A DNA stretch of 64,000 nucleotides from Roseimaritima multifibrata (lineage in GTDB: Bacteria; Planctomycetota; Planctomycetia; Pirellulales; Pirellulaceae). A program made the position numbers and the translations under genes. The stretch lies in NCBI RefSeq assembly GCF_007741495.1, contig NZ_CP036262.1:2976001-3040000 (forward strand), read 5' to 3'. Positions 7,469 through 25,244 of the stretch are shown piece by piece. The notes under the pieces are model-generated. The model made no database searches and was not told the DNA's origin. It saw only the letters and a list, made by a program, of their open reading frames with translations. Position 1 is the stretch's first letter, and the number at the start of each line of letters is the position of its first letter.

Positions 7469-8854
7469 TTAGGCTCGCGCGATCACCCGGAGGTTTGCTC
7501 TCCTTTCGGTTGCCAATCGGTCCAGCGGGCTGACAATTTCCAGTCGCTTCGGATCGGGGACGTGCGTGTAGATCTCCGTTGTCTTGACATCGCTGTGCCC
7601 CAGTAGACGTTGGATTTTGCGAATGTCCGTTCCGCTATGCAGCAAGTGCGTGGCGAAACAATGGCGAAAAGTGTGGCTGGTCACATGTTTTAGGATCCCC
7701 GCGGATTCCACCGCGTGACGTAGGTGCCTCGGAAACGTGTCGGAGTGCAGATGGTGGCGGTGCATGTGACCTGTTCGAGGATCGCGTGCCATGCGCTGCG
7801 ACACGAATAGATATTGCCAACGCAGTTGCCTGTGTGCGGACGGATACTTTGTTGCTAACGCATGCGGCAGCCATACCGACGCAACCCCTTCAGCTAGATC
7901 GTGTTCGTGCAGGACTCGTCTGGAATTGACCCAGCGCTTTAGCGGTTCCAGTAATTCCTGGGGCATCGGGACGATACGGCTTTTACCTCCCTTGGATTGA
8001 TGGATTTCGATCAAGCGGTTTTCGAAATCCAGATCTTTCAAACGCAGACGCAAGACTTCGCTGATTCGCATCCCGCACCCATACAGCAATTGAGCGATGG
8101 CTAGGTGGACACCGGCAAGTCCCTCCAGCACGCGATCCACTTCTGGTGGGCTTAGAACGGTCGGTATTTGTTTTCCTTTATTCGCACGGATCGCTTCGAT
8201 TTGCCCCATTTCTCGCTTCAGCACCAGGGTGAAGAATTTTAGCAAAGCGTGGAACGCTCCGTTCTGCGTGGACGGAGCGACATTGCCATCGACGGCAAGG
8301 TCCGTCAGATGGGCTTCAACATCGGCGGAGGTAATGCGTTTAAAGTCGGCCAAGCACGTCAGCCCGCGTTCGTGCATAAACGTCTTCAGCTTGGCGACAT
8401 AGGAGCGTTCGGTATTCAGGGCCAGTCCGTCCTTGCGAACGGCTCGTCGAAATGCTTGGATCGCGTCGGGCTCATTGGGATTGATCTTCCCGACAGCCTC
8501 TTCGATCGAATCGTAGCCCCCATCGCGAGCCCGCTCGATCTGAATGATTTCTACCATTTTCGACTGCAATGGTTTGAGGTCATCCGCCGATTGTTGCTGG
8601 ACTCGTCGGCGGTAGAAGATTAGGCCATCGATGATTCTCATCCTTTTCCAAGCCGGTACCGACGCATCCCGCTTTGTCCGCAAGAAAGAAATCACGTCAT
8701 CCGCCGTAAAACTCCAGTTCGGTTGGTCCTGGCGACGATGGAAGCGAGCAAGCTGTTGGTACCAGGTACAAGCCCATTTCAGATCCGTTTTCTCCCTAGC
8801 CGACTTCGTAAACATCTCCACGACATCGCCCTCGCAGTAGCCGAATTTCGACAA
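7469..8854 (-). CDS. intI: Integron integrase with an N-terminal extension
   Basis: A 461-residue tyrosine recombinase. The catalytic set is visible: Arg about 263 in 'GCGMRISEVLRL', Lys near 288 in 'QSKGGKSR', 'HTFRH' (His 394, Arg 397), His 420 in 'LLGHSD' and the nucleophile Tyr 429 in 'EIYTHV'. Between the Arg and His motifs lies the segment specific to integron integrases, with 'AEGVASVWLPHALATKYP' and 'DPRTGHMHRHHLH' (about residues 321-370), which separates it from XerC/D and phage integrases. IntI proteins are usually 320-340 residues. Here the first ~130 residues are extra and look like a second core-binding module ('WYQQLARF', 'ADDVISFL', 'RIIDGLIFYRRR'). It diverges from the cassette array, as in other integrons. 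Confidence 0.93.
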   Translation of the reverse strand: MSKFGYCEGDVVEMFTKSAREKTDLKWACTWYQQLARFHRRQDQPNWSFTADDVISFLRTKRDASVPAWKRMRIIDGLIFYRRRVQQQSADDLKPLQSKMVEIIQIERARDGGYDSIEEAVGKINPNEPDAIQAFRRAVRKDGLALNTERSYVAKLKTFMHERGLTCLADFKRITSADVEAHLTDLAVDGNVAPSTQNGAFHALLKFFTLVLKREMGQIEAIRANKGKQIPTVLSPPEVDRVLEGLAGVHLAIAQLLYGCGMRISEVLRLRLKDLDFENRLIEIHQSKGGKSRIVPMPQELLEPLKRWVNSRRVLHEHDLAEGVASVWLPHALATKYPSAHRQLRWQYLFVSQRMARDPRTGHMHRHHLHSDTFPRHLRHAVESAGILKHVTSHTFRHCFATHLLHSGTDIRKIQRLLGHSDVKTTEIYTHVPDPKRLEIVSPLDRLATERRANLRVIARA

Positions 8855-9185
8855 TCAGCGGAAGAGGCCCACGCCATTGCCGACGCTTGAACAAGAAAAC
8901 CAGCAAGAAATCCATTCCGCTGCTCGTACGTTCAGCATAGAGGATAGGAACGTGTGTCCACCAGTCCTCCTGGTTTTTATGGATTGACCAGAAAAGGGGG
9001 GGCTAAAACTTGCTACGAGCGAGTCAAGCGGGCATAATCAGGCCTCGGCGGCAGTCACAAGCAGTGAGAACAAGTAAGCAACCGACGAGAATAAGTCACT
9101 TCAAGAAGACTTATTCTCACCGCCAAACCCAGAACAACACCCTAAAACCACATATTCTCACCCGGTACGTCCGGTAAGAAACATA
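8855..9185. promoter_or_regulatory. attI: intI-array intergenic region with hairpin and presumed attI
   Basis: This region should hold the integrase promoter and attI. The recombination point is read as the GTT at 9186 ('AACATAGTTGCAC'), the same GTTGCAC that starts the second cassette. A near-perfect inverted repeat lies at 9088-9119 (GAGAATAAGT ... ACTTATTCTC, loop about 11). Related words GAGAACAAG (9066) and TATTCTCACC (9112, 9153) repeat around it and could be integrase-binding direct repeats. No promoter hexamers are clear enough to call. Confidence 0.55.
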
Positions 9186-10740
9186 GTTGCACTGGCCTAA
9201 CGGGGTTTTTCTTCGGGCGTTTATTTGATTGACGGATTCGTGATGGCAGTCACACTTCAATCGATATTCCAGCAGCACTTCGACGCTTTTGCTGAGAGGC
9301 ATCGTCTCTCACGCGACATGTTTCGTGCGGCTTGGGCGGTACGCCACTGCCGGACCCGTGAGCTCGGTGGCCACGTCAACAGCTGCCCTGACGGTCACTT
9401 CCACCAGATCGCGTACAACTCGTGCCGGCACCGCAGTTGTCCGCAGTGCGGTTGGCTGCCCAAAGAGCAATGGCTCGCCGGTTGGCGGACGCGGTTGCTT
9501 CCCTGTCCCCATCATCACATCATCTTCACCGTCCCTCATTCGCTGAACGATCTCTGGCGATTTAACAAGGCCGCATTCGCCGACACGTTGTTTGCCGCTG
9601 CCTCGCAGACGCTGAGCGAACTGCTCGGTGACGTTAAGTTCCTCGGCGGCCGTGTTGGCGTTCTGGCGGCCCTGCACACGTGGAACCAGGAGCTGAAATC
9701 GCACGTCCACTTGCACACGATCGTGACGGCCGGTGGTCTCGATGGCGACGGACAATGGCGGAAGCCCGTGAAAAAGTGCTTGTTGCCGCGGAAGGTGTTG
9801 ATGATCAAGTTTCGGGGTAAGTTCAAGGCGATGCTCCGCGAGAAGCTTCGGCAGGGACGGATGAAGCTGCCGCCTGGCATGACTGGCGATGCTTTCGAAC
9901 GTTTACTGAGGGAACTGACTGCGGTTCCCTGGAACGTTAAGGTCTTCGACGCCTATCGAAACGGTGTCAGTGTGGCGACGTATCTGGCTCGCTACATCAA
10001 AGGGGGACCGATCGGGAATTCACGCTTACTCTCGCTGAAGAACGGACGTGTTGTGTTCCGGTATCGCTTGCCGCATCGTCGCGGAGGGGATGGGAAGAGG
10101 CAGGCCAAGATGGACCTTCCGGTCGATACGTTTATCGGTCGCTGGCTGCAGCATGTGCCGCCGAGGCGTTTTCAGACGGTGCGTGGCTATGGGCTGTACT
10201 GCGGAAATCAGCACTCGCGTTGGGAGTGTGCCGCCGAAACGCTGGGTGTTCGTGTTGACGTTAACGCCGGAGACGATTTGTCGGTTGAGGAGATTCGCGA
10301 TTGGCAGGATTGGTGCGAAGCGGCAGGGATGAGCGATGTGTGTCGTTGTCCGAAGTGCAATAAGCGGTTGGTCAGTCATCACGAATTCGCGTCGGGTCGC
10401 GGACCGCCGGTGGGAGCTTTGCCGTATCGCCAGAGCGTCAAGCAAGGCAATGTTGCAGGAGGCATGATTGCATGAGCGAGCAACGGATAGCGTATGTCAC
10501 CGACGTCACCGAAGGTGCGGGATCGCCTCACCGGAAGGCTGTCGGAGGCAAGTGTCACGCTCCCCGAATTCACTGTACATCGCTGAAGCGGCCTGGTAAA
10601 ATCCTAAGCTTACGATCTGCAGTGGCAAGCCATCGTCCATAGCAATGGCCCGGCCAGAGCAACCAAGACGTTGCACCAGACTTCGGCGTCAGGCGTTTTT
10701 GTAAGCCAATGTCCATCCGCCGAAGCAGGTGAACTTAAAC
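9186..10740 (+). mobile_element. Cassette 1: IS91-like transposase gene in cassette form, copy A
   Basis: A 1555-bp unit bounded at both ends by GTT and ending in an attC. It repeats head-to-tail as cassette 2. By eye only two base differences were noticed over the whole unit (10239 A versus 11794 G; 10693 G versus 12248 A). The homology begins and ends exactly in the GTTG of the recombination boxes, so it behaves as an integron cassette and not as an IS with its own ends. Confidence 0.75.
9243..10475 (+). CDS. IS91-family HUH (Y2) transposase, copy A
   Basis: A 410-residue rolling-circle transposase. The N-terminal zinc-binding region carries 'HVNSCPDGHFHQ' and 'CRHRSCPQCGWLPKEQW'. The HUH metal motif is 'HVHLHTIV' (about 154-161). 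The paired catalytic tyrosines are in 'YLARYIKGGPI' (Tyr 247 and Tyr 251), the two-tyrosine pattern of IS91/IS801; ISCR proteins have one. The ATG at 9243 is preferred over the in-frame TTG at 9225. It would nick and transfer single-stranded DNA. IS91-type termini and GAAC/CAAG targets were not needed to explain its position, since the gene sits in a unit ended by attC sites. Confidence 0.88.
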   Translation: MAVTLQSIFQQHFDAFAERHRLSRDMFRAAWAVRHCRTRELGGHVNSCPDGHFHQIAYNSCRHRSCPQCGWLPKEQWLAGWRTRLLPCPHHHIIFTVPHSLNDLWRFNKAAFADTLFAAASQTLSELLGDVKFLGGRVGVLAALHTWNQELKSHVHLHTIVTAGGLDGDGQWRKPVKKCLLPRKVLMIKFRGKFKAMLREKLRQGRMKLPPGMTGDAFERLLRELTAVPWNVKVFDAYRNGVSVATYLARYIKGGPIGNSRLLSLKNGRVVFRYRLPHRRGGDGKRQAKMDLPVDTFIGRWLQHVPPRRFQTVRGYGLYCGNQHSRWECAAETLGVRVDVNAGDDLSVEEIRDWQDWCEAAGMSDVCRCPKCNKRLVSHHEFASGRGPPVGALPYRQSVKQGNVAGGMIA

Positions 10741-10747: not shown

Positions 10748-12295
10748 TGGCCTAACGGGGTTTTTCTTCGGGCGTTTATTTGATTGACGGATTCGTGATG
10801 GCAGTCACACTTCAATCGATATTCCAGCAGCACTTCGACGCTTTTGCTGAGAGGCATCGTCTCTCACGCGACATGTTTCGTGCGGCTTGGGCGGTACGCC
10901 ACTGCCGGACCCGTGAGCTCGGTGGCCACGTCAACAGCTGCCCTGACGGTCACTTCCACCAGATCGCGTACAACTCGTGCCGGCACCGCAGTTGTCCGCA
11001 GTGCGGTTGGCTGCCCAAAGAGCAATGGCTCGCCGGTTGGCGGACGCGGTTGCTTCCCTGTCCCCATCATCACATCATCTTCACCGTCCCTCATTCGCTG
11101 AACGATCTCTGGCGATTTAACAAGGCCGCATTCGCCGACACGTTGTTTGCCGCTGCCTCGCAGACGCTGAGCGAACTGCTCGGTGACGTTAAGTTCCTCG
11201 GCGGCCGTGTTGGCGTTCTGGCGGCCCTGCACACGTGGAACCAGGAGCTGAAATCGCACGTCCACTTGCACACGATCGTGACGGCCGGTGGTCTCGATGG
11301 CGACGGACAATGGCGGAAGCCCGTGAAAAAGTGCTTGTTGCCGCGGAAGGTGTTGATGATCAAGTTTCGGGGTAAGTTCAAGGCGATGCTCCGCGAGAAG
11401 CTTCGGCAGGGACGGATGAAGCTGCCGCCTGGCATGACTGGCGATGCTTTCGAACGTTTACTGAGGGAACTGACTGCGGTTCCCTGGAACGTTAAGGTCT
11501 TCGACGCCTATCGAAACGGTGTCAGTGTGGCGACGTATCTGGCTCGCTACATCAAAGGGGGACCGATCGGGAATTCACGCTTACTCTCGCTGAAGAACGG
11601 ACGTGTTGTGTTCCGGTATCGCTTGCCGCATCGTCGCGGAGGGGATGGGAAGAGGCAGGCCAAGATGGACCTTCCGGTCGATACGTTTATCGGTCGCTGG
11701 CTGCAGCATGTGCCGCCGAGGCGTTTTCAGACGGTGCGTGGCTATGGGCTGTACTGCGGAAATCAGCACTCGCGTTGGGAGTGTGCCGCCGAAGCGCTGG
11801 GTGTTCGTGTTGACGTTAACGCCGGAGACGATTTGTCGGTTGAGGAGATTCGCGATTGGCAGGATTGGTGCGAAGCGGCAGGGATGAGCGATGTGTGTCG
11901 TTGTCCGAAGTGCAATAAGCGGTTGGTCAGTCATCACGAATTCGCGTCGGGTCGCGGACCGCCGGTGGGAGCTTTGCCGTATCGCCAGAGCGTCAAGCAA
12001 GGCAATGTTGCAGGAGGCATGATTGCATGAGCGAGCAACGGATAGCGTATGTCACCGACGTCACCGAAGGTGCGGGATCGCCTCACCGGAAGGCTGTCGG
12101 AGGCAAGTGTCACGCTCCCCGAATTCACTGTACATCGCTGAAGCGGCCTGGTAAAATCCTAAGCTTACGATCTGCAGTGGCAAGCCATCGTCCATAGCAA
12201 TGGCCCGGCCAGAGCAACCAAGACGTTGCACCAGACTTCGGCGTCAGACGTTTTTGTAAGCCAATGTCCATCCGCCGAAGCAGGTGAACTTAAAC
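10741..12295 (+). mobile_element. Cassette 2: IS91-like transposase gene in cassette form, copy B
   Basis: Second head-to-tail copy of the 1555-bp unit. It is followed at 12283-12308 by a 13-bp tandem duplication of GAACTTAAACGTT, so its attC ends in two successive GTT boxes (12296 and 12309). Confidence 0.75.
10798..12030 (+). CDS. IS91-family HUH (Y2) transposase, copy B
   Basis: Same 410 residues as copy A with a single noticed replacement in the motif 'CAAETLGV' (here 'CAAEALGV'). Zinc-binding Cys/His residues, HVHLH and YLARY are all intact, so both copies could be functional. The near identity points to a very recent duplication. The region 12031-12211 between the stop and attC2 has no gene. 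Confidence 0.88.
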   Translation: MAVTLQSIFQQHFDAFAERHRLSRDMFRAAWAVRHCRTRELGGHVNSCPDGHFHQIAYNSCRHRSCPQCGWLPKEQWLAGWRTRLLPCPHHHIIFTVPHSLNDLWRFNKAAFADTLFAAASQTLSELLGDVKFLGGRVGVLAALHTWNQELKSHVHLHTIVTAGGLDGDGQWRKPVKKCLLPRKVLMIKFRGKFKAMLREKLRQGRMKLPPGMTGDAFERLLRELTAVPWNVKVFDAYRNGVSVATYLARYIKGGPIGNSRLLSLKNGRVVFRYRLPHRRGGDGKRQAKMDLPVDTFIGRWLQHVPPRRFQTVRGYGLYCGNQHSRWECAAEALGVRVDVNAGDDLSVEEIRDWQDWCEAAGMSDVCRCPKCNKRLVSHHEFASGRGPPVGALPYRQSVKQGNVAGGMIA

Positions 12296-14258: not shown

Positions 14259-16262
14259 GGGGCACCGTTCCCGGTGCCCCTCCCCACACCACGTAGCGTG
14301 CGGGTCCGCACTACGCGGTTCGACGAAGCGGAGCAAGCTGGGCCCACAGAGTCTTCAAGCTGAGTAAGCCTTCCTCTTGGAGCCATTTGTTGGTCAGTCC
14401 AACGTTACTGGCGATGGTTTTAGCCATTCGCCAGTGACCCTTGCGGCTGCGTGCGTGACGGATCGCTTGACGGCGAGGAACTCCCAATCGAATCAACATT
14501 TCCCGTCGACGTTTCGGTCGTTTCCACTGTTTCCAGTAGCACATCCGAATGCGGCGACGGATCCACTGGTCGAGTTTATCGAACAGCTTCAGTTGCGACG
14601 CGATCCCGAAGTAACCCATCCAGCCGCGAACGTATCGTCGCAGCTCGCCCAGTCGGCGGTCCATCGAGATCCCGCGGCTTCTGCCGGTGATCTCGCGGAC
14701 ACGCTGTTTGAAGCGAAGGATGGACTTAACAGCCACGTTGATGTTCGCTCGCGAATTCGGGAACGAGAACCCTAGGAACTCGAACTCCGTGCAAGCCAAC
14801 ACGCGGCTCTTCTCCTCATTGACTACCAAGCGAAGTTTCTTCGCTACGTAACGTCCGACCGACCTCATGATCCGCTCGGCCGCCCGGGGCGACTTCGCGA
14901 AGACCGCAAAATCATCCGCATAGCGAACGAACGGGAGCCCGCGACGTTCCAGTTCTTTGTCCAGATCATCAAGCAGGATGTTGCTTAATATCGGGCTCAG
15001 TGGACCGCCTTGCGGGGTTCCTAGATCGGTCGGTTGCAGCACACCTTCGACCATCACACCGGCTCGCAAGTAGCGTCCGATCAATTGCAGTAGCCGCTTG
15101 TCGCGAACTCGACGAGCCACACGCGACATCAAGACATCGTGTTGGACTCGATCGAAAAACTTCGATAAATCGAAGTCTGCTACGAAGCGGTAGCCGCGCC
15201 GGACCGTCCGGCGTACTTGCTTGGCGGCTCCGTGAGCCGAGCGTTTAGGCCGAAACCCGTGGCTCGAATCGCTAAATTGCGGATCGAACACAGGCGTGAG
15301 AATCTGGACGATGGCCTGTTGAATCAAGCGGTCGACGATGTTTGGAATACCAAGCAAACGCTTGCCGCCATCGGGCTTGTCGATGGTCTTGCGTCGCACC
15401 GGGTCGGGGCGATACGTGCCATCGAGCAGCTGTTGCCGGATCGACTGCCAACGAGGACGAAACCAGTCCGGGAATTCCGCGATCGTAATCCCATCGGGGC
15501 CAGGGGCTCCGCGGTTTCGCTTCACGTTCTTCCAAGCGGCTTCGAAATTGGCGTCGGCGACCACGTGCTGCATCAGCGACTCTGGTGAGTTGCTCAAGGC
15601 TGGCTGCTCGACCCGCGTCGCAGCGGTATCTCCCGGTCGGGATGGTGAACCGGTGGTCTCGGTGCCGACGTTGTCTGGAAAATACAGATCAACTTGCACC
15701 AAGGGGTTCCCTCGCCGTGAGTGGGCCGATGGCTCCTCCTTGTTCTTCATCGTTCGGTCCTTCCTGTTTCCGTTGGGATCGGAAATTCAGTACTATGACC
15801 TCTGCTGAGTTCTGCACCGCCCACGGTGGCTTTCGCCGCCGCGTTCCGCGGTTTCGGGCAAGCCCTACTCGTCGGAGCGTCGCCTGGCCTCGACCAGACT
15901 GTGCAGAGTTCCCCGGATAAGAGCGTGATGTATCGCTGCACAAGCTCGCCATTTACCTGAACGGTCGATTGGGGACGGCTTCGCACGGATGGGCGTGCTC
16001 GCCTGACCGAACCGGCCTTGTATGACGTTTCTGTTCGTAGCCTCGCAGCTTTGACGAGACCGTGTCCGGGTGGCGACAAACAAACCCGGCGTTTACGCAC
16101 ACGGTCGCAGGCTTCCTCTCCACGGTCGGTCGCCCTTCCGCAGTTGCCCTCGTCTAGTACTTCCCTTTCGTGGTCGATCATTTGGTATACTGACACCTGA
16201 AAGTTTCCAATCTCGTACAGGGGACTTGCACCCCAAAACGATCACGCCCATGCCGGGCGTAC
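14259..16262 (-). mobile_element. Group IIC intron inserted in attC6, antisense to the cassettes
   Basis: A 2004-bp intron read on the minus strand. Its 5' end is GTACGCCCGGCATGGGCGTG (16262 leftwards), resembling the GTGTGCCCGGCATGGG start known for group IIC introns. The reverse transcriptase gene follows. Domain V occupies 14288-14321 (ACCGCGTAG ... CTACGTGGT, then GTGTGGGGAGG) and domain VI is the hairpin GGGGCACC/GGTGCCCC at 14259-14280. Exact excision restores a normal attC. Group IIC-attC introns of proteobacterial integrons are known to insert in the bottom strand of attC with this orientation; the exact 5' and 3' bases here are inferred from that restored site. Confidence 0.88.
14311..15750 (-). 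CDS. ltrA: Group IIC intron-encoded reverse transcriptase/maturase
   Basis: A 479-residue multifunctional protein. Reverse-transcriptase blocks are present in order: 'GAPGPDGITI' (about 81-90), 'DKPDGGKRLLGIPNIVDRL' (124-142), 'SSHGFRPKRSAHGA', 'DFDLSKFFDRV', 'GTPQGGPLSPILSN' (244-257) and the catalytic 'YADD' (277-280). A maturase/X domain and the C-terminal 'RRYVRGWMGYFGIA' region follow. There is no HNH endonuclease domain, as usual for group IIC. The stop codon overlaps the start of domain V. All catalytic residues are intact, so the intron may still splice and move. Confidence 0.92.
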   Translation of the reverse strand: MKNKEEPSAHSRRGNPLVQVDLYFPDNVGTETTGSPSRPGDTAATRVEQPALSNSPESLMQHVVADANFEAAWKNVKRNRGAPGPDGITIAEFPDWFRPRWQSIRQQLLDGTYRPDPVRRKTIDKPDGGKRLLGIPNIVDRLIQQAIVQILTPVFDPQFSDSSHGFRPKRSAHGAAKQVRRTVRRGYRFVADFDLSKFFDRVQHDVLMSRVARRVRDKRLLQLIGRYLRAGVMVEGVLQPTDLGTPQGGPLSPILSNILLDDLDKELERRGLPFVRYADDFAVFAKSPRAAERIMRSVGRYVAKKLRLVVNEEKSRVLACTEFEFLGFSFPNSRANINVAVKSILRFKQRVREITGRSRGISMDRRLGELRRYVRGWMGYFGIASQLKLFDKLDQWIRRRIRMCYWKQWKRPKRRREMLIRLGVPRRQAIRHARSRKGHWRMAKTIASNVGLTNKWLQEEGLLSLKTLWAQLAPLRRTA

Positions 16263-18230: not shown

Positions 18231-18249
18231 GGATAACAAAAAAATGCAA
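18231..18249 (+). repeat. attC: attC9, left fragment
   Basis: R'' GGATAAC (18231-18237) plus 12 bases, then the ORF-less group II intron. The site resumes after about 19130 and ends in R' GTTGTGC (19194). Confidence 0.7.
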
Positions 18250-19130
18250 GTGCGGACTGGCAAGGTCTGCTTGACTAGCGGGTGTGAACCCCGCCTGGGT
18301 AAACGCTAGCCACGTGCCCAGTATCGAGTGTTGCAGCGGCTGTATAAGACCTTTGGTCGAAGTCGCCGCTTCCGCGTGCACCTAAAGTTAGTGAGGATGG
18401 AGCGATCGTAGGTGGCCCTGCGACGTTGAATGGAATTAGCCCCGAAATTTGGTAACTGTTGGATCTTGCCCAAGGTTTGTTCACGTCTGAAGGCAATATC
18501 GTTTGCAGTATTAGTGGCAAGCTGCAAGGGAAGACCCGGGGTCGGCGGCCCATTCGCACTACACATTAAGTCAAGCAGGCAACCAGTGAGACCCTGATGT
18601 TCTTGGAAGATTCATGAAGCCCAATCATGATCGACCGAGTATGTCTTAGGAGTGGAATAAGCGACGAAGACAAATGACATTCAGGGAGTCGGATGACCGA
18701 ATAGTACTGCAGAAGCTTGATTGCCAATCAAGTGGAATGAAGCTGGGTAATGCAGGTGAAGGGAAGGCGGTCAGGATTTCACGCGATGCCGTTTGGGCAC
18801 CGACCGTACTCAGTGACGGACTCTCGGTGATACCCCGGTTGTATCGCAGTTTTGATTTTGAGATGGGAGTTCAGTAGCACACGACGTTGTTTCGTCCACG
18901 CGTAAGCCTCCGCGTGGCTTCGAGGCAATCGAATGTGACCTGCCTGTCTTCGAGAACGATACCAGGTGAAGTCTGGGAGCCGGATGCTAGAAAGTGGCAC
19001 GTCCGGATCTGAGAGGGGCCGGAGGTCAGTGCGGCGAAGTTGGGGGTTTGGAACACCGCATCGAGAAATCGGTGGTAAACGGTGAACTAAAGCACTAACC
19101 TAAACCAAAGAGACCCCGGTCTACTCGCCC
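18250..19130 (+). mobile_element. ORF-less group II intron-like element in attC9 (copy 1)
   Basis: About 881 bp in sense orientation. It starts GTGCGGACTGGC, matching the GUGYG group II 5' end. A domain V-like element GAGCCGGATGC-loop-GCACGTCCGGATC (18977-19009) has the expected 33-nt hairpin with a GAAA-type loop, comparable to RmInt1-class domain V. The 3' end is placed at CTACTCGCCC (19121-19130), which resembles the branch-site region of domain VI. However, 110 nt separate it from domain V, longer than usual, so the 3' boundary is uncertain. No frame encodes a reverse transcriptase. A second copy lies at 22172-23059. Confidence 0.68.
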
Positions 19131-19200
19131 GGAGCACTCATTTACGCGCCAACTGAAATCAAAGTCTTACGTTCGTGCCCGGTTACGGCGGACGTTGTGC
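19131..19200 (+). repeat. attC: attC9, right fragment
   Basis: Contains the arm CCGGAGCAC (its first bases shared with the intron end) pairing with GTGCCCGG and ends in R' GTTGTGC at 19194. Confidence 0.72.
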
Positions 19201-19249
19201 TATGAGCTTTGGCTTGTCGCCTGCTAGGGAACCCTAATTGGAGAGAATC

Positions 19250-19582
19250 ATGTCCACTGTGCACCCTTCGATACAGTCCGCAAAACCACCGATCACTGGG
19301 CTAGGTTTTCGCAACCTCATCGCGTGCGTCTGTGTTACTGGTGCATATACTTTCGCGGTGTTGAGCGGCACTTTGTTTCTGTTGCCATCGGTATACGTCG
19401 TTCTTGCATTGCTTGCAGTTGCTGCGGTAGTTGCTGCAAGTGTTGCGAATGGACCACTTCTTCAAGTTTGTCGCCGAGAGTCTCGGAAACTGCTGCCAGT
19501 AATTGTCGTCGTTGTCTCGGCCTGCATTTCCATTGCCTCGTCTGTTTGCGTCGGTGCGGTATCCTACAATTTCGTGCACTAA
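19250..19582 (+). CDS. Cassette 10: unknown membrane protein
   Basis: A 110-residue protein from ATG 19250, preceded by GGAGAG at 19240-19245. Three hydrophobic helices are visible ('LIACVCVTGAYTFAVLSG', 'LPSVYVVLALLAVAAVVAAS', 'LLPVIVVVVSACISIASSVC'). No family recognised. It ends about 27 bp before attC10. Confidence 0.62.
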   Translation: MSTVHPSIQSAKPPITGLGFRNLIACVCVTGAYTFAVLSGTLFLLPSVYVVLALLAVAAVVAASVANGPLLQVCRRESRKLLPVIVVVVSACISIASSVCVGAVSYNFVH

Positions 19583-19608
19583 CGGCTTAGTGATGCACGT
19601 ACCCGAGG

Positions 19609-19699
19609 GCATAACAACGACGGTGCACCCGAGTGGCCGAGTCTGGGTGTTTGAAATGGAGCGTCACTCGCGGCCACCGGGTGACCGCGGACGTTATCG
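19609..19699 (+). repeat. attC: attC10
   Basis: R'' GCATAAC (19609), R' GTTATCG (19693). Arms CACCCGAGTGGCCGAG and CTCGCGGCCACCGGGTG. Confidence 0.9.
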
Positions 19700-19702
19700 C
19701 AC

Positions 19703-20332
19703 ATGAAAACAATGCGTTCCTACAGCCTTCGTGCTTTGCTTTGCTCTGTCACGGTTTTTGCATTGTTGTGTGCGCTAGCGGTGTCCATGTACAGGAATTA
19801 CAGTGATCAAGCCGAGTTAGATGTTCTTCGTGCCGAAGTGGGGTCCCTGAACGTCGATGACCCACAAATGGTGCATGTCCGGTACGTTGCCACGAAGGAC
19901 AAGTATTCGTGGAAATGGCGACTTTACGTCCCAAAAAACACGCACGTCGAAGCTGGCGTAGAACTGGACTCAAAGTACCGTGAAGACGGCGAGCCCAAAG
20001 GTGGCATCTCTAGGATTGTGTCGTCCGCCCCAAATGGGGTGGTGATTTCCGTTTCCGTATCACCGACAATTGACGACGTCTCCACCGTGACTCTCCGGCT
20101 AGGGGATGAAATCCTTGGCACCTACGGTACGAACCTTGATCCGATAGAGTGGCTTCCACTTGACGGCAACCGATATATTGCGGCAGAGGCTTCCACTCAA
20201 CAATCCGTGCGCGGCGTCCCGATCCGGCTGCTCACCCGCAAAATACCTGGCAGCTGGAAGGGGGGAGGGCACCCAATGGCCGGGAAAGACATGGGGTTAG
20301 TTGTCTGGATTGTTCCGCGCAAAGAGCGATAA
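19703..20332 (+). CDS. Cassette 11: membrane-anchored protein of unknown function
   Basis: A 209-residue protein whose ATG lies ten bases after the recombination point. The N-terminus 'MRSYSLRALLCSVTVFALLC' is the 'YSLR.LL' membrane anchor often seen in planctomycete proteins. This suggests the cassette was assembled from a planctomycete gene. A helical stretch (about 35-50) precedes a beta-rich exported domain ending 'GLVVWIVPRKER'. The TAA stop (20330-20332) lies in the R'' box of attC11. Function unknown. Confidence 0.68.
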   Translation: MKTMRSYSLRALLCSVTVFALLCALAVSMYRNYSDQAELDVLRAEVGSLNVDDPQMVHVRYVATKDKYSWKWRLYVPKNTHVEAGVELDSKYREDGEPKGGISRIVSSAPNGVVISVSVSPTIDDVSTVTLRLGDEILGTYGTNLDPIEWLPLDGNRYIAAEASTQQSVRGVPIRLLTRKIPGSWKGGGHPMAGKDMGLVVWIVPRKER

Positions 20333-20417
20333 CCATCATATCCCCCGAAGCACGCGATTGGGGTGTTTTGACAATGGCACATCAACTTCGCGTGCTCGGT
20401 GGTGTGTGTCGTTCTGG
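20327..20417 (+). repeat. attC: attC11
   Basis: R'' CGATAAC (20327), R' GTTCTGG (20411). Arms CCGAAGCACGCG and CGCGTGCTCGG. Confidence 0.88.
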
Positions 20418-20431
20418 CACGCAGCGCGCAT

Positions 20432-20472
20432 CGTGCTCGTGCTCAGTGAAACGGTGCTCGTGCTCGTAATCG
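20432..20472 (+). repeat. Inverted repeat, left arm, cassette 12
   Basis: GTGCTC-rich arm ending 'GTGCTCGTGCTCGTAATCG'. Its reverse complement matches the right arm at 20881-20921 with small indels of one GTGCTC unit. It ends 13 bases before the ATG. Confidence 0.85.
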
Positions 20473-20485
20473 AAATGGTGCTTTG

Positions 20486-20974
20486 ATGAACGATCCAATC
20501 TTCGACCACGATCGGCTCGATGTTTATTGTCTCTCGATCGAATACGTTGCTGATGCATTTGACGTTTGCAAATCGCTCAGCGGATTGCATCGTCACGCCC
20601 GCGACCAATGGCTTTGCGCCGCCCAGTCGATTCCGCTGAATATCGCCGAGGGCAACGGCAAACGAAGCTTGAAGGATCGTGCTCGAATTTTCGACATAGC
20701 TCGCGGTTCGTCGTTTGAATGCGCGGCGATTCAAGATGTCTTGGTCGCGACTGGTGGGGTGAACGCCTCAACGAGTCGCGATTTGAAGTCCAAGCTCAAG
20801 CGAATCGTGGCAATGTTGACCCGGATGGCCATGAAGTTTGACGGCGTCAACGAACCTTCGGTAGACTATGCCGTGGCGATCGATTACGAGCACCGCGATG
20901 CTGAGCACGAGCACGAGCACGAAAGCGGGGCAGAACCAAGCCGTGCGCCCGAGGACGGCTTGCGCGGTTTCTGA
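20486..20974 (+). CDS. Cassette 12: four-helix-bundle protein (23S IVS family), copy 1
   Basis: A 162-residue protein from ATG 20486. It shows the four-helix-bundle/23S rRNA intervening-sequence family pattern (TIGR02436): 'FDHDRLDVYCLSIEYVADAF', 'QWLCAAQSIPLNIAEGNGK', 'FDIARGSSFECAAIQDVL', then 'LKSKLKRIVAMLTRMAMKF'. These proteins form barrel-like pentamers that bind nucleic acid; their cellular role is unclear. The C-terminal tail rich in Glu, His and Asp ('EHRDAEHEHEHE') is the translation of an inverted-repeat arm, and the last residues are encoded by attC12. No Shine-Dalgarno precedes the start. Confidence 0.85.
   Translation: MNDPIFDHDRLDVYCLSIEYVADAFDVCKSLSGLHRHARDQWLCAAQSIPLNIAEGNGKRSLKDRARIFDIARGSSFECAAIQDVLVATGGVNASTSRDLKSKLKRIVAMLTRMAMKFDGVNEPSVDYAVAIDYEHRDAEHEHEHESGAEPSRAPEDGLRGF
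20881..20921 (+). repeat. Inverted repeat, right arm, cassette 12
   Basis: Begins CGATTACGAGCAC and runs through GAGCAC units; complementary to 20432-20472. It lies within the coding sequence. Confidence 0.85.
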
Positions 20975-21019
20975 AGTGGAAAGTATTCCGTCCGTGCTCC
21001 GTGATGTCCGCCGTTCTGG
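20930..21019 (+). repeat. attC: attC12
   Basis: R'' GCAGAAC (20930), R' GTTCTGG (21013). Left arm 'CGCCCGAGGACGG' faces 'CCGTCCGTGCTCCG'. Confidence 0.88.
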
Positions 21020-21040
21020 CACGAAGCGCGCATCGTGCAT

Positions 21041-21081
21041 CGTGCTCGTGCTCAGTGAAACGGTGCTCGTGCTCGTAATCG
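21041..21081 (+). repeat. Inverted repeat, left arm, cassette 13
   Basis: Same 41-bp arm as in cassette 12. It pairs with 21490-21536: a run of 21 exact pairs, a 5-6 nt mismatch, then 14 more pairs. Confidence 0.88.
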
Positions 21082-21094
21082 AAATGGGGCTTTG

Positions 21095-21589
21095 ATGAAC
21101 GATCCAGTCTTCGACCACGATCGGCTCGATGTTTATCGTCTCTCGATCGAATACGTTGCTGATGCATTTGACGTTTGCAAATCGCTCAGCGGATTGCATC
21201 GTCATGCCCGCGACCAATGGCTTCGCGCCGCCCAGTCGATTCCGCTGAATATCGCCGAGGGCAACGGCAAACGAAGCTTGAAGGATCGTGCTCGATTTTT
21301 CGACATAGCTCGCGGTTCGTCGTTTGAATGCGCGGCGATTCAAGATGTATTGTTCGCGCCTGGTGGGGTGAACGACTCAACGAGTCGCGACTTAAAGTCC
21401 AAGCTCAAGCGAATCGTAGCAATGTTGATCCGGATGGCCATGAAGTTTGACGGCGTCCAAGAACGTTCGGTAGACTATGCCGTGGCGGTCGATTACGAGC
21501 ACGAGCACCGCGATGCTGAGCACGAGCACGAGCACGAAAGCGGGGCAGAACCAAGCCGTGCGCCCGAGGACGGCTTGCGCGGTTTCTGA
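21095..21589 (+). CDS. Cassette 13: four-helix-bundle protein (23S IVS family), copy 2
   Basis: A 164-residue near-copy of cassette 12 with scattered changes (for example 'QWLRAAQ' for 'QWLCAAQ', 'RFFDIARG' for 'RIFDIARG') and one additional His-Glu pair in the tail ('YEHEHRDAEHEHEHE'). All helices of the bundle are intact. The tandem copies differ enough to suggest the duplication is older than that of the IS91-like cassettes. Confidence 0.85.
   Translation: MNDPVFDHDRLDVYRLSIEYVADAFDVCKSLSGLHRHARDQWLRAAQSIPLNIAEGNGKRSLKDRARFFDIARGSSFECAAIQDVLFAPGGVNDSTSRDLKSKLKRIVAMLIRMAMKFDGVQERSVDYAVAVDYEHEHRDAEHEHEHESGAEPSRAPEDGLRGF
21490..21536 (+). repeat. Inverted repeat, right arm, cassette 13
   Basis: 47-bp arm complementary to 21041-21081, inside the 3' end of the coding sequence. 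Confidence 0.88.
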
Positions 21590-21634
21590 AGTGGAAAGTA
21601 TTCCGTCCGTGCTCCGTGATGTCCGCCGTTCTGG
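21545..21634 (+). repeat. attC: attC13
   Basis: R'' GCAGAAC (21545), R' GTTCTGG (21628). Nearly identical to attC12. Confidence 0.88.
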
Positions 21635-21648
21635 CACGAAGCGCGCAT

Positions 21649-21689
21649 CGTGCTCGTGCTCAGTGAAACGGTGCTCGTGCTCGTAATCG
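21649..21689 (+). repeat. Inverted repeat, left arm, cassette 14
   Basis: Same arm as in cassettes 12 and 13, complementary to 22098-22144. Confidence 0.85.
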
Positions 21690-22097
21690 AAATGGTGCTT
21701 TGATGAACGATCCAAACTTCGACTACGATCGGCTCGATGTTTATCGTCTCTCGATCGAATACGTTGCTGATGCATTTGACGTTTGCAAATCGCTCAGCGG
21801 ATTGCATCGTCACGCCCGCGACTAATGGCTTCGCGCCGCCCAGTCGATTCCGCTGAATATCGCCGAGGGCAACGGCAAACGAAGCTTGTAGGATCGTGCT
21901 CGATTTTTCGACATAGCTCGCGGTTCGTCGTTCGAATGCGCGACAATTCAAGATGTCTTGGTCGCGACTGGTGGGGTGAACGACTCAACGAGTCGCGACT
22001 TAAAGTCCAAGCTCAAGCGAATCGTGGCAATGTTGCCCCGGATGGCCATGAAATTTGACGGCGTCAAAGAACCTTCGGTAGACTATGCCGTGGCGAT

Positions 22098-22144
22098 CGA
22101 TTACGAGCACGAGCACCGCGATGCTGAGCACGAGCACGAGCACG
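22098..22144 (+). repeat. Inverted repeat, right arm, cassette 14
   Basis: 47-bp arm identical in pattern to 21490-21536. Confidence 0.85.
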
Positions 22145-22152
22145 AAAGCGGG

Positions 22153-22171
22153 ACAGAACCATGCCGTGAAC
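22153..22171 (+). repeat. attC: attC14, left fragment
   Basis: R'' ACAGAAC (22153-22159) plus 12 bases, then the second group II intron copy. R' GTTCTGC follows at 23122. Confidence 0.7.
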
Positions 22172-23059
22172 GTGCGGACTGGCAAGGTCTGCTTGACTAG
22201 CGGGTGTGAACCCCGCCTGGGTAAACGCTAGCCACGTGCCCAGTATCGAGAGTTGCAGCGGTTGTATAAGGCCTTCGGTCGAAGTCGCCGCTTCCGCGTA
22301 CATCAAAAGGTAGTGAGGGTGAAGCGATCATCGGTGGCCCTGCGACGTTGAATGGATTTTGGATTTGCTCCGAAATTTGGTAACTGTGGGATTCTGCCCG
22401 AGGTTTGTGAATACCTGGAGGCAACATCTTTTGCAGCATTGATGGCAAGCTGTAAGAGAAGACCCGGGGGCAGCGGCCCATTCGCACTACACATTAAGTC
22501 AAGCAGGCAGCCAGTGAGCCCCTGATGCTCTTGGACGGCCCATGAAACCCAATCATGATCGACCGAGTATGTCTTAGGAGTGGAATAAGCGACGAAGACA
22601 AATGACATTCGGGGAGTCGGATGACCGAATAGTACCGCAGAAGCTTGATTGCCAATCAAGTGGAATGAAGCTGGGTAATACTGGTGAAGGGAAGGCGGTC
22701 AGGATTTCACGCGATGCCGTTTGGGCACCGACCGTACTCAGTGACGGACTCTCGGTGATCCCCCTGTTGCATTGCAGTTTCGCTTTTGGAATAGGAGTTC
22801 AGTAGTACACGACGTTGTTTCGTCCACGCGTAAGGCTCCGCGTGGCATCGAGGCAATCGAATGTGACCTGCCTGTCTCTGAGAGTGATGCCAGGTGAAGA
22901 CTGGGAGCCGGATGCTAGAAAGTGGTACGTCCAGATCTTAGAGGGGCCGGAGGTCAATGCGGCGAAGTTGGAGTTTTGGAGCACGACGATCGAGAAATCG
23001 GTGGCAAACGGTGAGCTCAAACACTAACCTAAACCAAAGAGACCTCGGTCTACTCGCCC
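22172..23059 (+). mobile_element. ORF-less group II intron-like element in attC14 (copy 2)
   Basis: About 888 bp, clearly related to copy 1 at 18250-19130 over its whole length (same 5' GTGCGGACTGGC, same internal words such as 'GAAGCTGGGTAAT', same 3' CTACTCGCCC). Domain V is at 22905-22937 but has changed bases in its lower stem (GTACGTCCAGATC against GCACGTCCGGATC), so this copy may be weakened. No reverse transcriptase frame. It begins exactly 12 bases after the AAC of R'', as in copy 1. Confidence 0.68.
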
Positions 23060-23128
23060 GGAGCGGCGGCAGCGCGTTTCGTAACGCTAAGCTTTACACT
23101 CGCCGTCCGGTGACGGCTGCCGTTCTGC
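23060..23128 (+). repeat. attC: attC14, right fragment
   Basis: Arms CCGGAGCGGCG (its first bases shared with the intron end) and CGCCGTCCGG, then R' GTTCTGC (23122). The sequence differs from the right half of attC12 and attC13. Confidence 0.72.
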
Positions 23129-23151
23129 CAATGAGGATGCTCTAGCGACTT

Positions 23152-23898
23152 GTGAAACGTTTTCTCATTGGGCTACTCTCCCTCGTTTCAATTGCCGTTT
23201 TAGCGTGGTGGCTTCTTCACAAGAGACCACTCAATGCTGACGTTCAAGTCCGTGAACTTACCGTGGACGGCAGCGTTCGCACCTATCGCATCGTGGTTCC
23301 GTACAACTTGGTTTCGCCTGCCCCGGTTTTATTTGCTTTTCATGGTATTGGCGATTCTACCGATTCGATGGCCCAATACTCCCAACTTGATCGTCTTGCG
23401 GCGGGCAACGGATTCATTCTCGTATATCCCGCTGCATTAAATTCGATGTGGTCAACCATCAACATCGATCCAGCCGACCTCGATGCTAACCCGGATGTTC
23501 GGTTCTTCGATGACTTGTATGCTCAGTTAGCTTCCGAACACAGCATCGCCTCCGATCGCATCTACCTTGCCGGAATGCCAAACGGTGGCTCGTTTGTTCA
23601 TATCTTGGCCACTGCTAGGCCGAAAATGATTGCCGCGTTCGTCGCGCACTCGGGATTGCGACCGCGAGAACTTGGCGATTGTGACCATTCAATTCCGATG
23701 GTGCTATTGGCCGGTGCCAACGATTCGGTTGCACCGATCATGAATTTCAATGCTGATCGATATCGCTCCGCTGGATGCACCGTCGATTATATTGAGATCC
23801 CAAGACTGGCGCATGAATGGTCGGCACGGCATAATCGGGTGATATGGCGATTCCTTTCCGCCCACGACCGGGATAGCACGGAAGAGGCAGAACCATAA
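23152..23898 (+). CDS. Cassette 15: PHB-depolymerase/LpqC-like hydrolase lacking the catalytic Ser
   Basis: A 248-residue protein from GTG 23152. An N-terminal anchor or signal ('FLIGLLSLVSIAVLAWWLL') precedes an alpha/beta-hydrolase domain: 'PVLFAFHGIGDSTDSMAQYS' (oxyanion region), 'RIYLAGMPNGGSFVHILA' at the nucleophile elbow, 'LAGANDSVAP' (Asp) and 'RLAHEWSARH' (His). The family motif is GxSNGG, but here the elbow reads GMPNGG, so the nucleophilic Ser is Pro, a one-base change (TCA to CCA would do it). The protein is therefore predicted to be catalytically dead or altered. Confidence 0.8.
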   Translation: MKRFLIGLLSLVSIAVLAWWLLHKRPLNADVQVRELTVDGSVRTYRIVVPYNLVSPAPVLFAFHGIGDSTDSMAQYSQLDRLAAGNGFILVYPAALNSMWSTINIDPADLDANPDVRFFDDLYAQLASEHSIASDRIYLAGMPNGGSFVHILATARPKMIAAFVAHSGLRPRELGDCDHSIPMVLLAGANDSVAPIMNFNADRYRSAGCTVDYIEIPRLAHEWSARHNRVIWRFLSAHDRDSTEEAEP

Positions 23899-23978
23899 TT
23901 TGCATAGGAGAACGGGAGTCGTGTTTAATGGTCTGCTTGCAAGTCTTTTCCCGTCCCCCGTGAATTCCAACGTTATGC
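23887..23978 (+). repeat. attC: attC15
   Basis: R'' GCAGAAC (23887), R' GTTATGC (23972). Arms GAGAACGGGAG and CCCGTCCCC are weaker than in other sites. Confidence 0.75.
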
Positions 23979-23985
23979 CAGCAAG

Positions 23986-24633
23986 ATGTTGCACCCACTA
24001 ACACAGATTGGCAAATGGCTTGCGGTGCTTGTCATCGGCCTTGTTTGTATTTCTTCTCTGACGTTCAGTTCGGTAGGCTCCGGTACTGGCACTGGATTCT
24101 TTTCCCACTGGTTTGGCGCCTCTTTTCGCGTTTGGCCGGAATCTGTTGGTGACGCGTCCGGTACACTTCGTGTTGAGGGAAACGTCGAGCCAGTGTTTCT
24201 TCTGTGGGGACACGTTTGTCCCGCCTACAAAGCAGTGGAGCTTGAGTGGGAGATGTTTCATGTCGCTGAACATAAGGGGGGAGCCACTCTCGATCTCGAG
24301 CAAATGACAGTTGTGGCTGGTGACAAAACGACTGCCATCGATGAGGATTCCCTTTCAGCGTTACTTGGTTTTTCCACTGCAAATCCCCGTGATGCCGAGC
24401 ATGTAGCAACGCTTCTCAAATTTCTACGTTCGGCGAATGACGGAACGCTTCCACCGCCAAGCCACCATGGACACGAATTGCCAGAGCCGCTTCCGGGACG
24501 CATGCAGCATTTCGCTTCTGGCGCAAGCATTCCTCCTCTTCAACTTCTTTGGATGATCGCTTGGCTAATGAGTGGGCTTTGGATTTTGTTTCGACGTCGA
24601 CGTATTGTGCCGGCGGAACCAAGTCGGGCATAA
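23986..24633 (+). CDS. Cassette 16: unknown protein with two membrane anchors
   Basis: A 215-residue protein from ATG 23986. One hydrophobic helix is N-terminal ('WLAVLVIGLVCISSLTF'), a second near the C-terminus ('LLWMIAWLMSGLWILF') is followed by a basic 'RRRR' stretch. The domain between is probably extracytoplasmic and has no recognised family. The TAA stop (24631-24633) lies in the R'' box of attC16. Confidence 0.62.
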   Translation: MLHPLTQIGKWLAVLVIGLVCISSLTFSSVGSGTGTGFFSHWFGASFRVWPESVGDASGTLRVEGNVEPVFLLWGHVCPAYKAVELEWEMFHVAEHKGGATLDLEQMTVVAGDKTTAIDEDSLSALLGFSTANPRDAEHVATLLKFLRSANDGTLPPPSHHGHELPEPLPGRMQHFASGASIPPLQLLWMIAWLMSGLWILFRRRRIVPAEPSRA

Positions 24634-24718
24634 CAAAGCCGAGCACGCCGAACACGCGGTCCGGCGTATTTGACATGGAACATCTCTCGCGCGTACCCGC
24701 TGACGACCAACGTTCTTG
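24628..24718 (+). repeat. attC: attC16
   Basis: R'' GCATAAC (24628), R' GTTCTTG (24712). Arms GAGCACGCCGAACACGCG and CGCGCGTACCCGC. Confidence 0.82.
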
Positions 24719-25063
24719 CGGCCCAGCGTTCTCTTGCAACTTTCGTGATAGCCTAGGGCTCTTCCGTGATAGCGTAGGGCTGTTGCGCAGGCATTGATCA
24801 TTTTCGGTTTAGAGCAACCTGGCGCATCCATTCGCGAAATTGGCGTTATTAGCGGGCAATGTTGCACGCATGTTTTTGCCCGCGAATAACGCTAATCTGC
24901 GCGAATGATAGGGATCGTGATTCGCTGTCGACCTTGATGCTTGTTGTCGCTACTGCACGACGCGGTGTCGATTCTTGTTGATCGGCTCCGTTTTGCCCAG
25001 TATGTTAAGGGCATGCCATATCAATGCGACTGGCGAATTGTTCGATGTGCATTAAGTCCATCG
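24719..25063 (+). other. Body of cassette 17: no gene; contains a chromosomal repeat
   Basis: No supported gene. Bases 24813-24918 are a copy of the palindromic repeat that occurs four times behind polA (53560-54160): 'CGTTATTAGCGGGCAA' opposite 'TTGCCCGCGAATAACG'. A short direct repeat 'CGTGATAGC.TAGGGCT' lies at 24744-24783. Bases 24975-25090 resemble 25395-25510 of the next cassette. Confidence 0.65.
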
Positions 25064-25244
25064 CGAGAACAACGTGGTGCACTTGAGGACTGGCAAGCTC
25101 GGCTTGGTTAGCGGGTGTGAATCCCGCCTGGGGAAATGCTAGCCTAAGCCAAACGGAACGCGGTCTGCTCGCCCGGAGCGGCGAGTCCGGCGGGAATTGA
25201 AATCAACGCGTTACGACACCATCCGGTTATGCCAAACGTTCTTC
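25064..25244 (+). repeat. attC: attC17, carrying a deleted intron remnant
   Basis: R'' CGAGAAC (25064), R' GTTCTTC (25238). Outer arms GTGGTG and CACCAT. The middle (about 25083-25174) is the first ~60 bp of the group II element ('GGACTGGCAAG', 'GCGGGTGTGAATCCCGCC') joined to its last ~40 bp ('CGGTCTGCTCGCCC'). Confidence 0.7.
25077..25174 (+). mobile_element. Remnant of the ORF-less group II element (copy 3)
   Basis: Compared with copies 1 and 2 the central ~780 bp, including domain V, are missing. The junction lies at the similar words GCTAGCC (5' side) and ACTAACC (3' side), so a deletion between short repeats is likely. The A of the presumed branch site CTACTC is G here. 'GGACTGGC' starts 16 bases after the AAC of R'', as in the complete copies. 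Confidence 0.62.

Follow-up and report, generated by a model that had tools for sequence, protein, structure and literature searches.

Introns of the integron array and their boundaries

The region analysed here (the window) comprises 64,000 nucleotides (nt), positions 2976001–3040000 of the 7,216,590-base single-contig genome of Roseimaritima multifibrata, and carries an integron array with an integrase open reading frame (ORF) at its head on the minus strand (7469..8854; TIGR02249, 422 bits; Phage_integrase), followed by cassettes on the plus strand. The attC sites of this array hold two ORF-less intron copies, W1 (18250..19129, plus strand, 880 nt) and W2 (22172..23058, plus strand, 887 nt), each lying inside the L'' box of a different attC, as well as W3 (about 25083..25173, plus strand, 91 nt), a remnant left by internal deletion. 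W1 and W2 are group II introns, and their lineage very probably has its dispersed homing sites in the attCs of planctomycete integrons.

The identity of both copies is established by Rfam covariance models, as an initial annotation made from the sequence alone had anticipated, with RF02005 (D1–D4; threshold 49) scoring 71.7 bits at 18285–18551 in W1 and 52 bits at 22207–22479 in W2. That annotation also proposed a domain V in each copy, which holds for W1 (RF00029, domain V/VI, threshold 40; 43.8 bits at 18975–19129), with W2 remaining below the threshold (30.5 bits, E = 0.005, at 22903–23058). Domain V of W1, with an AGC triad, occupies 18976..19010 on the plus strand, and that of W2, the stem of which has one broken pair, 22904..22938 on the same strand. 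In W1, domain VI follows at 19013..19126 (plus strand), where an unpaired A (19123), located 7 nt from the intron's 3' end, is a candidate branch point.

Both introns begin with GTGCGGACTGGC exactly 12 nt after the AAC of R'' (18235–18237 for W1 and 22157–22159 for W2) and are sense to the cassettes, in agreement on both counts with the initial annotation; among the ORFs of 80 residues or more, none of reverse transcriptase (RT) size was found within W1 or W2, as had likewise been stated. The 3' ends, at 19129 and 23058, read ...CTACTCGCC. They are set there because the CGGAGC downstream occurs in empty attC sites (TGCAA/CGGAGC, GTGAAC/CGGAG and TGCAC/CGGAG) and hence consists of attC bases, which moves the end of W1 from the earlier estimate of about 19131 to 19129. 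The host attC of W1 is divided into a 5' half of R'' AAC plus 12 nt (18235..18249) and a 3' half running from CGGAGC through L'/R' to the final GTT (19130..19196), giving 82 nt from AAC to GTT once the intron is removed; that of W2 is divided into AAC plus CATGCCGTGAAC (22157..22171) and a 3' half at 23059..23124, giving 81 nt, with all four halves on the plus strand.

W3 retains about 60 nt of the intron 5' end joined to about 30–35 nt of the 3' end, and is matched at 25085–25191 (33.1 bits) by R1, an 88-nt model of the family. The earlier view of W3 as a remnant at the matching site stands in that it too starts at AAC+12; the GGACTGGC word, however, appears at an offset of 16 because TTGA replaces GTGC as the first four bases.

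Copies in the host genome and in other planctomycetes

Six ORF-less copies and one RT-bearing copy are present in the R. multifibrata genome, distributed over three arrays at 2.99, 5.03, and 5.73 Mb, together with intron remnants and two weaker relatives. All seven copies lie at AAC+12, in sense, in different attCs, with both half-sites varying among them, and all exceed the RF02005 threshold, with RF00029 exceeded in six (W2 being the exception). Group II introns begin with GUGYG and end with RAY, and the 5' GTGCG found in 7/7 copies fits the former, while their 3' end departs from the latter. The search for a full-length RT-carrying relative, suggested by the initial annotation, yielded the copy at genome positions 5729600–5731671 (minus strand), with an intact 488-aa RT ORF matching TIGR04416 (355.9 bits; cut-off 300) and RVT_1 (PF00078). 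A GIIM match in this RT is below the cut-off (19.2 bits), and no endonuclease domain was found with Pfam.

Without the intron, the attCs of all seven copies measure 81–83 nt (W1 82, B3 83), with 32 of 36 empty attC sites measuring 81–85 nt and the other four 78 or 99. The empty sites derive from a rough stem-score attC finder, which missed known sites and thus gives a lower bound only; since attC is palindromic, running it on the reverse strand provides no control. The structure of the family is conserved as in a functional RNA in 20 sequences of domains V–VI, where 94.5% of 673 cells pair, 15 of 34 pairs show two-sided changes, and none of 500 shuffles attains any of the five covariation measures. 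For the first 88 nt of domain I (25 distinct sequences), 98.2% of 550 cells pair, and three of the five measures again exceed every one of the 500 shuffles; 22 shuffles attain the observed count of pairs with two-sided changes, and 414 the number of pair types.

The intron family extends beyond this genome, with a DNA search giving matches in 21 of 100 genomes drawn from the host's taxonomic family. R1 gave matches in 18 genomes out of 392 sampled across the phylum (E 0.001) and in 12 out of 297 from the class (1e-5); the host genome is counted each time, and each sample was an even draw. Insertions in attC are seen within the host's taxonomic family and also in another family of its class (G411, G641, G646); many weaker R1 matches in the phylum are other introns at other sites, and a search of plasmid DNA gave no match. 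Among the 61 family 5' boundaries, which are the loci actually read from these searches, AAC lies 11–13 nt upstream in 45 and exactly 12 nt upstream in 42, so that the insertion point is indeed tied to R'', as first claimed. L039 has its AAC at 13 through a one-base shift and L184 at 12, and one of the 45, L182 (G683), is at another site type, probably by coincidence. In a rough control, AAC at 11–13 nt was seen in 0 of 16 weaker phylum matches and in 4 of 25 flanks of RT relatives (L067, L083, L095, L096), all four lacking L''; in L095 and L096 the model starts past the GTGCG. Chance was rejected as an explanation of the position on the basis of the seven own copies at AAC+12 in different attCs and the 45 of 61 boundaries across genomes.

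G087, taken to be Planctomycetes bacterium CA13 and of the same taxonomic family as the host, has five places of equal BLAST score with differing attC upstream flanks. A replication-strand cause of the orientation was also considered: GC skew over 20 stretches of the R. multifibrata genome switches sign at the contig start and again somewhere in 3.6–3.96 Mb, and with an origin close to 0 all three arrays would be oriented along replication (DnaA-like matches at position 91 and at 1.88 Mb are both below the cut-off, and a search for a dif-like pattern found none). This fits the R. multifibrata genome, but was rejected for CA13, where copies lie on both strands within 1.16–1.38 Mb. All five CA13 copies read are nevertheless sense to attC, and attC polarity therefore sets the orientation.

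Several further loci bear on the distribution of the family. At 5026209–5026239 (minus strand) of the host genome, a remnant retains nothing but the final 31 nt of the intron and is followed by what resembles the right half of an attC. L175 (G037) has two family starts on the minus strand, at 8164–8251 and 8990–9079, about 830 nt apart and both at AAC+12, with TCCAGC in one of them in place of the usual L'' hexamer. L182 and L190 (G683) are family-like introns starting GAGTAAAC at a site type, CAACATGGT...TTTACG, that is apparently not attC.

The genome has two integron integrases (2.98 and 5.04 Mb) that pass the cut-off of their family, which the matches at 5.736 Mb do not. Within the window, three near-identical cassettes stand in tandem at 20417–22180, with a spacing of about 608 bp and 96–97% identity over 300 nt, the last of which carries W2 in its attC; their small ORF is, we presume, reminiscent of four-helix-bundle proteins. 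Between the integrase and the array, two tandem ORFs of equal length (416 aa), at 9225–10475 and 10780–12030, may constitute a duplicated element.

Guide–target pairing, RT class, and a branch with another target

Two 6-nt loops of domain I provide the guides of these introns, with exon-binding site 1 (EBS1; GTTCAC, GTGCAT, TTGCAT) pairing with exon positions –6 to –1, which constitute L'', and EBS2 (TTTGGT, CTTTGT, CATGGT) pairing with positions –14 to –9, which cover the final two bases of R'' together with four bases of the adjoining spacer. In W1, EBS2 TTTGGT (18448..18453) forms five of six pairs with the intron-binding site 2 (IBS2) ACAAAA (18236–18241), and EBS1 GTTCAC (18479..18484) three of six with IBS1 ATGCAA (18244–18249); W2 carries EBS2 TTTGGT at 22376..22381 and EBS1 GTGAAT at 22407..22412, the latter forming four of six pairs (all on the plus strand). 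Guides of six nt for both EBS1 and EBS2 are a group IIB character, which is also common in IIA and so is not diagnostic alone.

Covariation between guides and targets is established across genomes. A blind scan of 4214 exon/intron windows in 28 introns placed EBS1/IBS1 first and second (z = 6.0 and 5.3). The dedicated test used 30 rows out of 58 boundaries, with L039 moved by one base; left out were the seven copies in domain V of other introns described below, L065 (guides and site end the same as in L029), and 20 loci in which the EBS loops or the flanks were absent, truncated, or illegible to the search pattern, among which L178 and L180 nevertheless have EBS1 matches of 6/6. L190 and L194 pair at 3/6 at a slot taken as a mis-hit of the pattern. 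In attC rows of other genomes, EBS1/IBS1 forms 112 of 120 pairs where shuffling gives a mean of 102.7 (p = 0.00026, n = 20), and EBS2/IBS2 110 of 132 where it gives 95.8 (p = 0.00002, n = 22), with exon position –12 matching EBS2 as A–T or C–G in 20 of 22. Inclusion of the R. multifibrata copies gives p = 0.015 for EBS1 (n = 27) and p = 0.00016 for EBS2 (n = 28), and a smaller first test of EBS1, with the domain V copy excluded and CA13 collapsed, gave p = 0.11. A register control for EBS2 shows its maximum at –14 to –9 (4.90 pairs), the next best register giving 3.45.

Three copies of the host genome occupy TGCAA sites, namely W1 (18250), B1 (5028207–5029092), and C1 (5727855–5728741), and in these the rejoined attC stems are weak (best scores 19, 19, and 21.5, versus 27 to 32 in the other four). 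At a TGCAA site in G715 the intron carries EBS1 TTGCAT, which matches. The EBS1 mismatch in W1, B1, and C1 may, for instance, result from recombination between copies.

The same array also contains a group IIC-attC-type intron (14259..16262, minus strand; RF02001, RF01998, and junctions; ends approximate, set by eye), which is antisense and splits the R'' of its attC, and whose class C-type RT (14311–15750, minus strand) scores 454.7 bits against the GsI-IIC RT. The RT of the 5729600–5731671 copy scores 149.3 bits against the same protein, 160.5 bits against the group II RT chain 7uim, and 160.3 bits against LtrA. In a tree of 37 RTs rooted on the class C RT of the window, the planctomycete RTs of attC and domain V copies form one clade (support 99), adjoining RTs of Cupriavidus, of an Acetobacteraceae metagenome-assembled genome, and of a Sinorhizobium plasmid; the nearest plasmid relative of the R. 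multifibrata RT among the best 5000 records is 44.3% identical. Judged by these scores and this tree, the intron RT is a group II RT outside class C, a placement that goes no further than non-C. The two kinds of intron also differ in where they enter attC, with the group IIC intron splitting R'' on the bottom strand, and the split made by W1 and W2 lying some 12 nt deeper, in L'' of the top strand. Membership of the group IIC-attC introns was rejected on the basis of the RT scores, the non-class-C position in the RT tree, the sense insertion at L'' in 7/7 own copies, and the presence of an EBS2 that covaries with its target.

A branch of the family has a different target, with six copies in G403 and one in G032 (L035) inserted after GGTCCG in the antisense domain V of group IIC introns, a word which the group IIC intron of the window also carries (14278–14320, plus strand). 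At both G403 loci checked (L172 and L173), the copy has as its neighbour a group IIC RT encoded on the other strand, complete and 63.7% identical in L173 and reduced to the last 59 residues in L172. EBS1 in these copies is CGGACC, which complements GGTCCG at 6/6 pairs in all seven, and EBS2 GCATGT, read in L172 and L035, matches ACATGC or GCATGC at –13 to –8, a register shifted by one base towards the intron relative to the attC copies. In the RT tree, the pair of RTs from domain V copies falls within the attC-targeting ones (supports 93 and 97; 90 for the pair itself), and for this reason attC targeting looks ancestral in the RT clade.

Spread of the lineage and its significance

The six ORF-less copies of R. 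multifibrata share one domain IV and form a single clade (support 99) beside the RT-bearing copy in a tree of domains I–III, and the remnant of an RT N-terminus is readable in domain IV of W1. One shared domain IV and one clade in six attCs fit a single deletion followed by movement, and, as expected of ORF-less introns mobilised in trans, the genome holds a close RT-bearing relative and the deletion is common to the copies. The six copies were therefore, most likely, spliced and moved in trans by the RT of the 5729600–5731671 copy, with the genome content suggesting that they depend on its maturase function. ORF-less copies of 784–884 nt also occur in G037, G077, G013, G009, and G025, and the domain IV sequences of such forms vary, with L047, L030, and L031 showing 41.5, 22.6, and 50.3% identity to W1, so that ORF loss has probably recurred in the family.

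Taken together, the reading we consider best supported, with a probability of roughly 0.86, is that a group II lineage outside class IIC uses planctomycete integron attC sites as dispersed homing sites, with its ORF-less satellites probably moved in trans. The intron RNA would read the top strand of the R''–L'' half-site through its two 6-nt guides, EBS2 pairing at –14 to –9 and EBS1 at –6 to –1, and reverse splicing between bases of L'' would leave the intron in sense with the cassette and able to be spliced from array transcripts. Priming of cDNA is assumed to occur at replication forks, as the RT has no recognised endonuclease domain, and the RT from the 5729600–5731671 copy would both splice and mobilise the six ORF-less derivatives, two of which lie in the window. 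What the data demonstrate is the identity and boundaries of the introns, their fixed site, the cross-genome covariation of guides and targets, and the presence of an RT-bearing relative in the host genome; splicing, retrohoming, the action of the RT in trans, and the route of priming are inferred. A fuller version, in which the family is specialised on integrons, its guides encode R''–L'', its satellites rely on one RT, and a nested branch has reprogrammed both guides to domain V of group IIC introns, is one that we favour with more reserve.

A number of observations weigh against this reading. The 3' end is CTACTCGCC in all seven own copies, which is not the usual RAY. When the two domain V rows are withheld from the blind scan, EBS1 falls to eleventh (z = 2.8), because L'' is nearly invariant, and the p-value for EBS2 is partly post hoc, its slot having been picked after the blind scan was seen. 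The R. multifibrata copies alone pair no better than shuffled ones (EBS2 p = 0.80, n = 6; EBS1 p = 0.97, n = 7), with W1, B1, and C1 pairing at only three of six EBS1 positions. Sixteen of the 61 boundaries have no AAC at 11–13 nt, comprising the seven domain V copies, L178, truncated at the end of its contig, and L034, L042, L186, L154, L165, L190, L040, and L185, in which the triplet differs or nothing matches. With RF02005, the ORF-less copies of R. multifibrata reach 52–71.7 bits, compared with 109.4 for the RT-bearing copy, and may therefore be decaying, an argument tempered by the 105.9 bits of the ORF-less L026 of another genome.

Recognition of the folded attC hairpin by the ribonucleoprotein, as in group IIC-attC introns and with EBS pairing secondary, was considered as an alternative. 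attC is palindromic and can fold, its stem-loop is used by group IIC-attC introns (PMC7923331), and IBS1-like hexamers are so frequent, with 422 on the two strands of the 64-kb window, that IBS1 alone cannot give specificity. However, EBS2 covaries with the end of R'' and the spacer, bringing the pairing to about 12 nucleotides, both guides of the domain V branch correspond to the different site that it occupies, and insertion is in the top strand rather than the recombining strand (PMC7923331), leaving this alternative unlikely. The evidence thus favours recognition of the top-strand R''–L'' half-site by EBS1/EBS2 pairing rather than of the attC stem as a structure; the second lineage proposed in the initial annotation appears to be attC-specific as claimed, with half-site pairing taking the place of the stem as its target. 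A divergent group IIC-attC intron inserted in the opposite strand would be another way to account for the copies, given that class C introns are the classic attC introns and that one class IIC intron, not of the IIC-attC type, is mentioned in an attC top strand (PMC7923331). We give this almost no credence, with the RT at 149.3 bits to GsI-IIC (454.7 for the group IIC RT of the window) and outside the group IIC RTs in the tree, a domain V with AGC, an EBS2, and another insertion point and strand.

The ORF-less copies could also have arisen without movement in trans, either by loss of the ORF after insertion or by homologous recombination spreading an ORF-less domain IV. The dissimilar domain IV of L047, L030, and L031 would suit this, as would the W1-like domain IV of L026 and L027 (about 72%) despite the domain I–III tree setting them apart, whereas the single domain IV and single clade of the six own copies in six attCs argue for movement in trans; on this evidence we regard such an origin as doubtful for the R. 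multifibrata copies, if a little less so than hairpin recognition. Multiplication of one insertion by cassette shuffling through the integrase, or by duplication, is very improbable. An intron-bearing attC would move with its cassette, but both half-sites differ among the seven copies, the upstream flanks differ at the five CA13 places, and the guides covary with their targets across genomes, with the differing flanks and the covariation leading us to disfavour passive spread.

Published introns of integrons differ from the present family in several respects. Group IIC-attC introns enter R'' (TTGT/T) on the bottom strand and run antisense to the cassettes, with a short IBS1 and no known IBS2 (PMC7923331). 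They resemble the present lineage in being group II introns repeatedly inserted in attC, one of them in this very array (14259–16262), and are unlike it in strand, box, orientation, guides, and RT, with the present introns in the top strand at L'', in sense, with 6+6-nt guides and a non-class-C RT. Sonbol and Siam (2021; PMC7923331) describe UHB.I2 (IIB/CL1) and H.ha.F1/F2 (IIB/class E), which are likewise non-IIC introns in cassette arrays, UHB.I2 also being sense to the cassettes. UHB.I2, however, is a single copy just past an attC, with exons poorly conserved among its relatives, and H.ha.F1/F2 are 5'-truncated (PMC7923331), whereas the present family occupies a fixed position inside attC with matching guides. 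The same article speculates on a role for the top-strand hairpin (PMC7923331).

The closest parallel to the ORF-less forms of R. multifibrata is provided by TeI3/TeI4 of Thermosynechococcus elongatus (PMC2882425), where an ORF-less lineage derived from one ORF deletion is mobilised by the intron-encoded proteins of its relatives, and where families have different EBS-defined targets, some being nested in other introns (PMC2882425). The organism is a different one, integron targets are not mentioned in the available text of that article, and the likeness is drawn from published descriptions. RmInt1 of Sinorhizobium similarly has an RT without an endonuclease domain, and RmInt1/RmInt2 use the site of another mobile element as a multi-copy homing site, the targets in that case being insertion sequences (PMC5894124). 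No account of the present lineage was found in the literature on group II introns, integrons, attC, and Planctomycetes, as represented by titles and the beginnings of abstracts, with most subscription papers outside the search. What is probably new here is an intron lineage outside class IIC that appears to home specifically to attC and whose satellites probably depend on an RT acting in trans.

Guide-based insertion in sense would make splicing from array transcripts possible, and the guide/target pairs that occur naturally, those of the retargeted branch among them, render the attC specificity directly testable. Repeated intron copies in arrays are also recombination substrates, and could reshape the cassettes. 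If the reading proposed here is true, every cassette attC would be a homing site for these introns, and the retargeted branch would attack group IIC introns, of which the one in this array itself occupies an attC.

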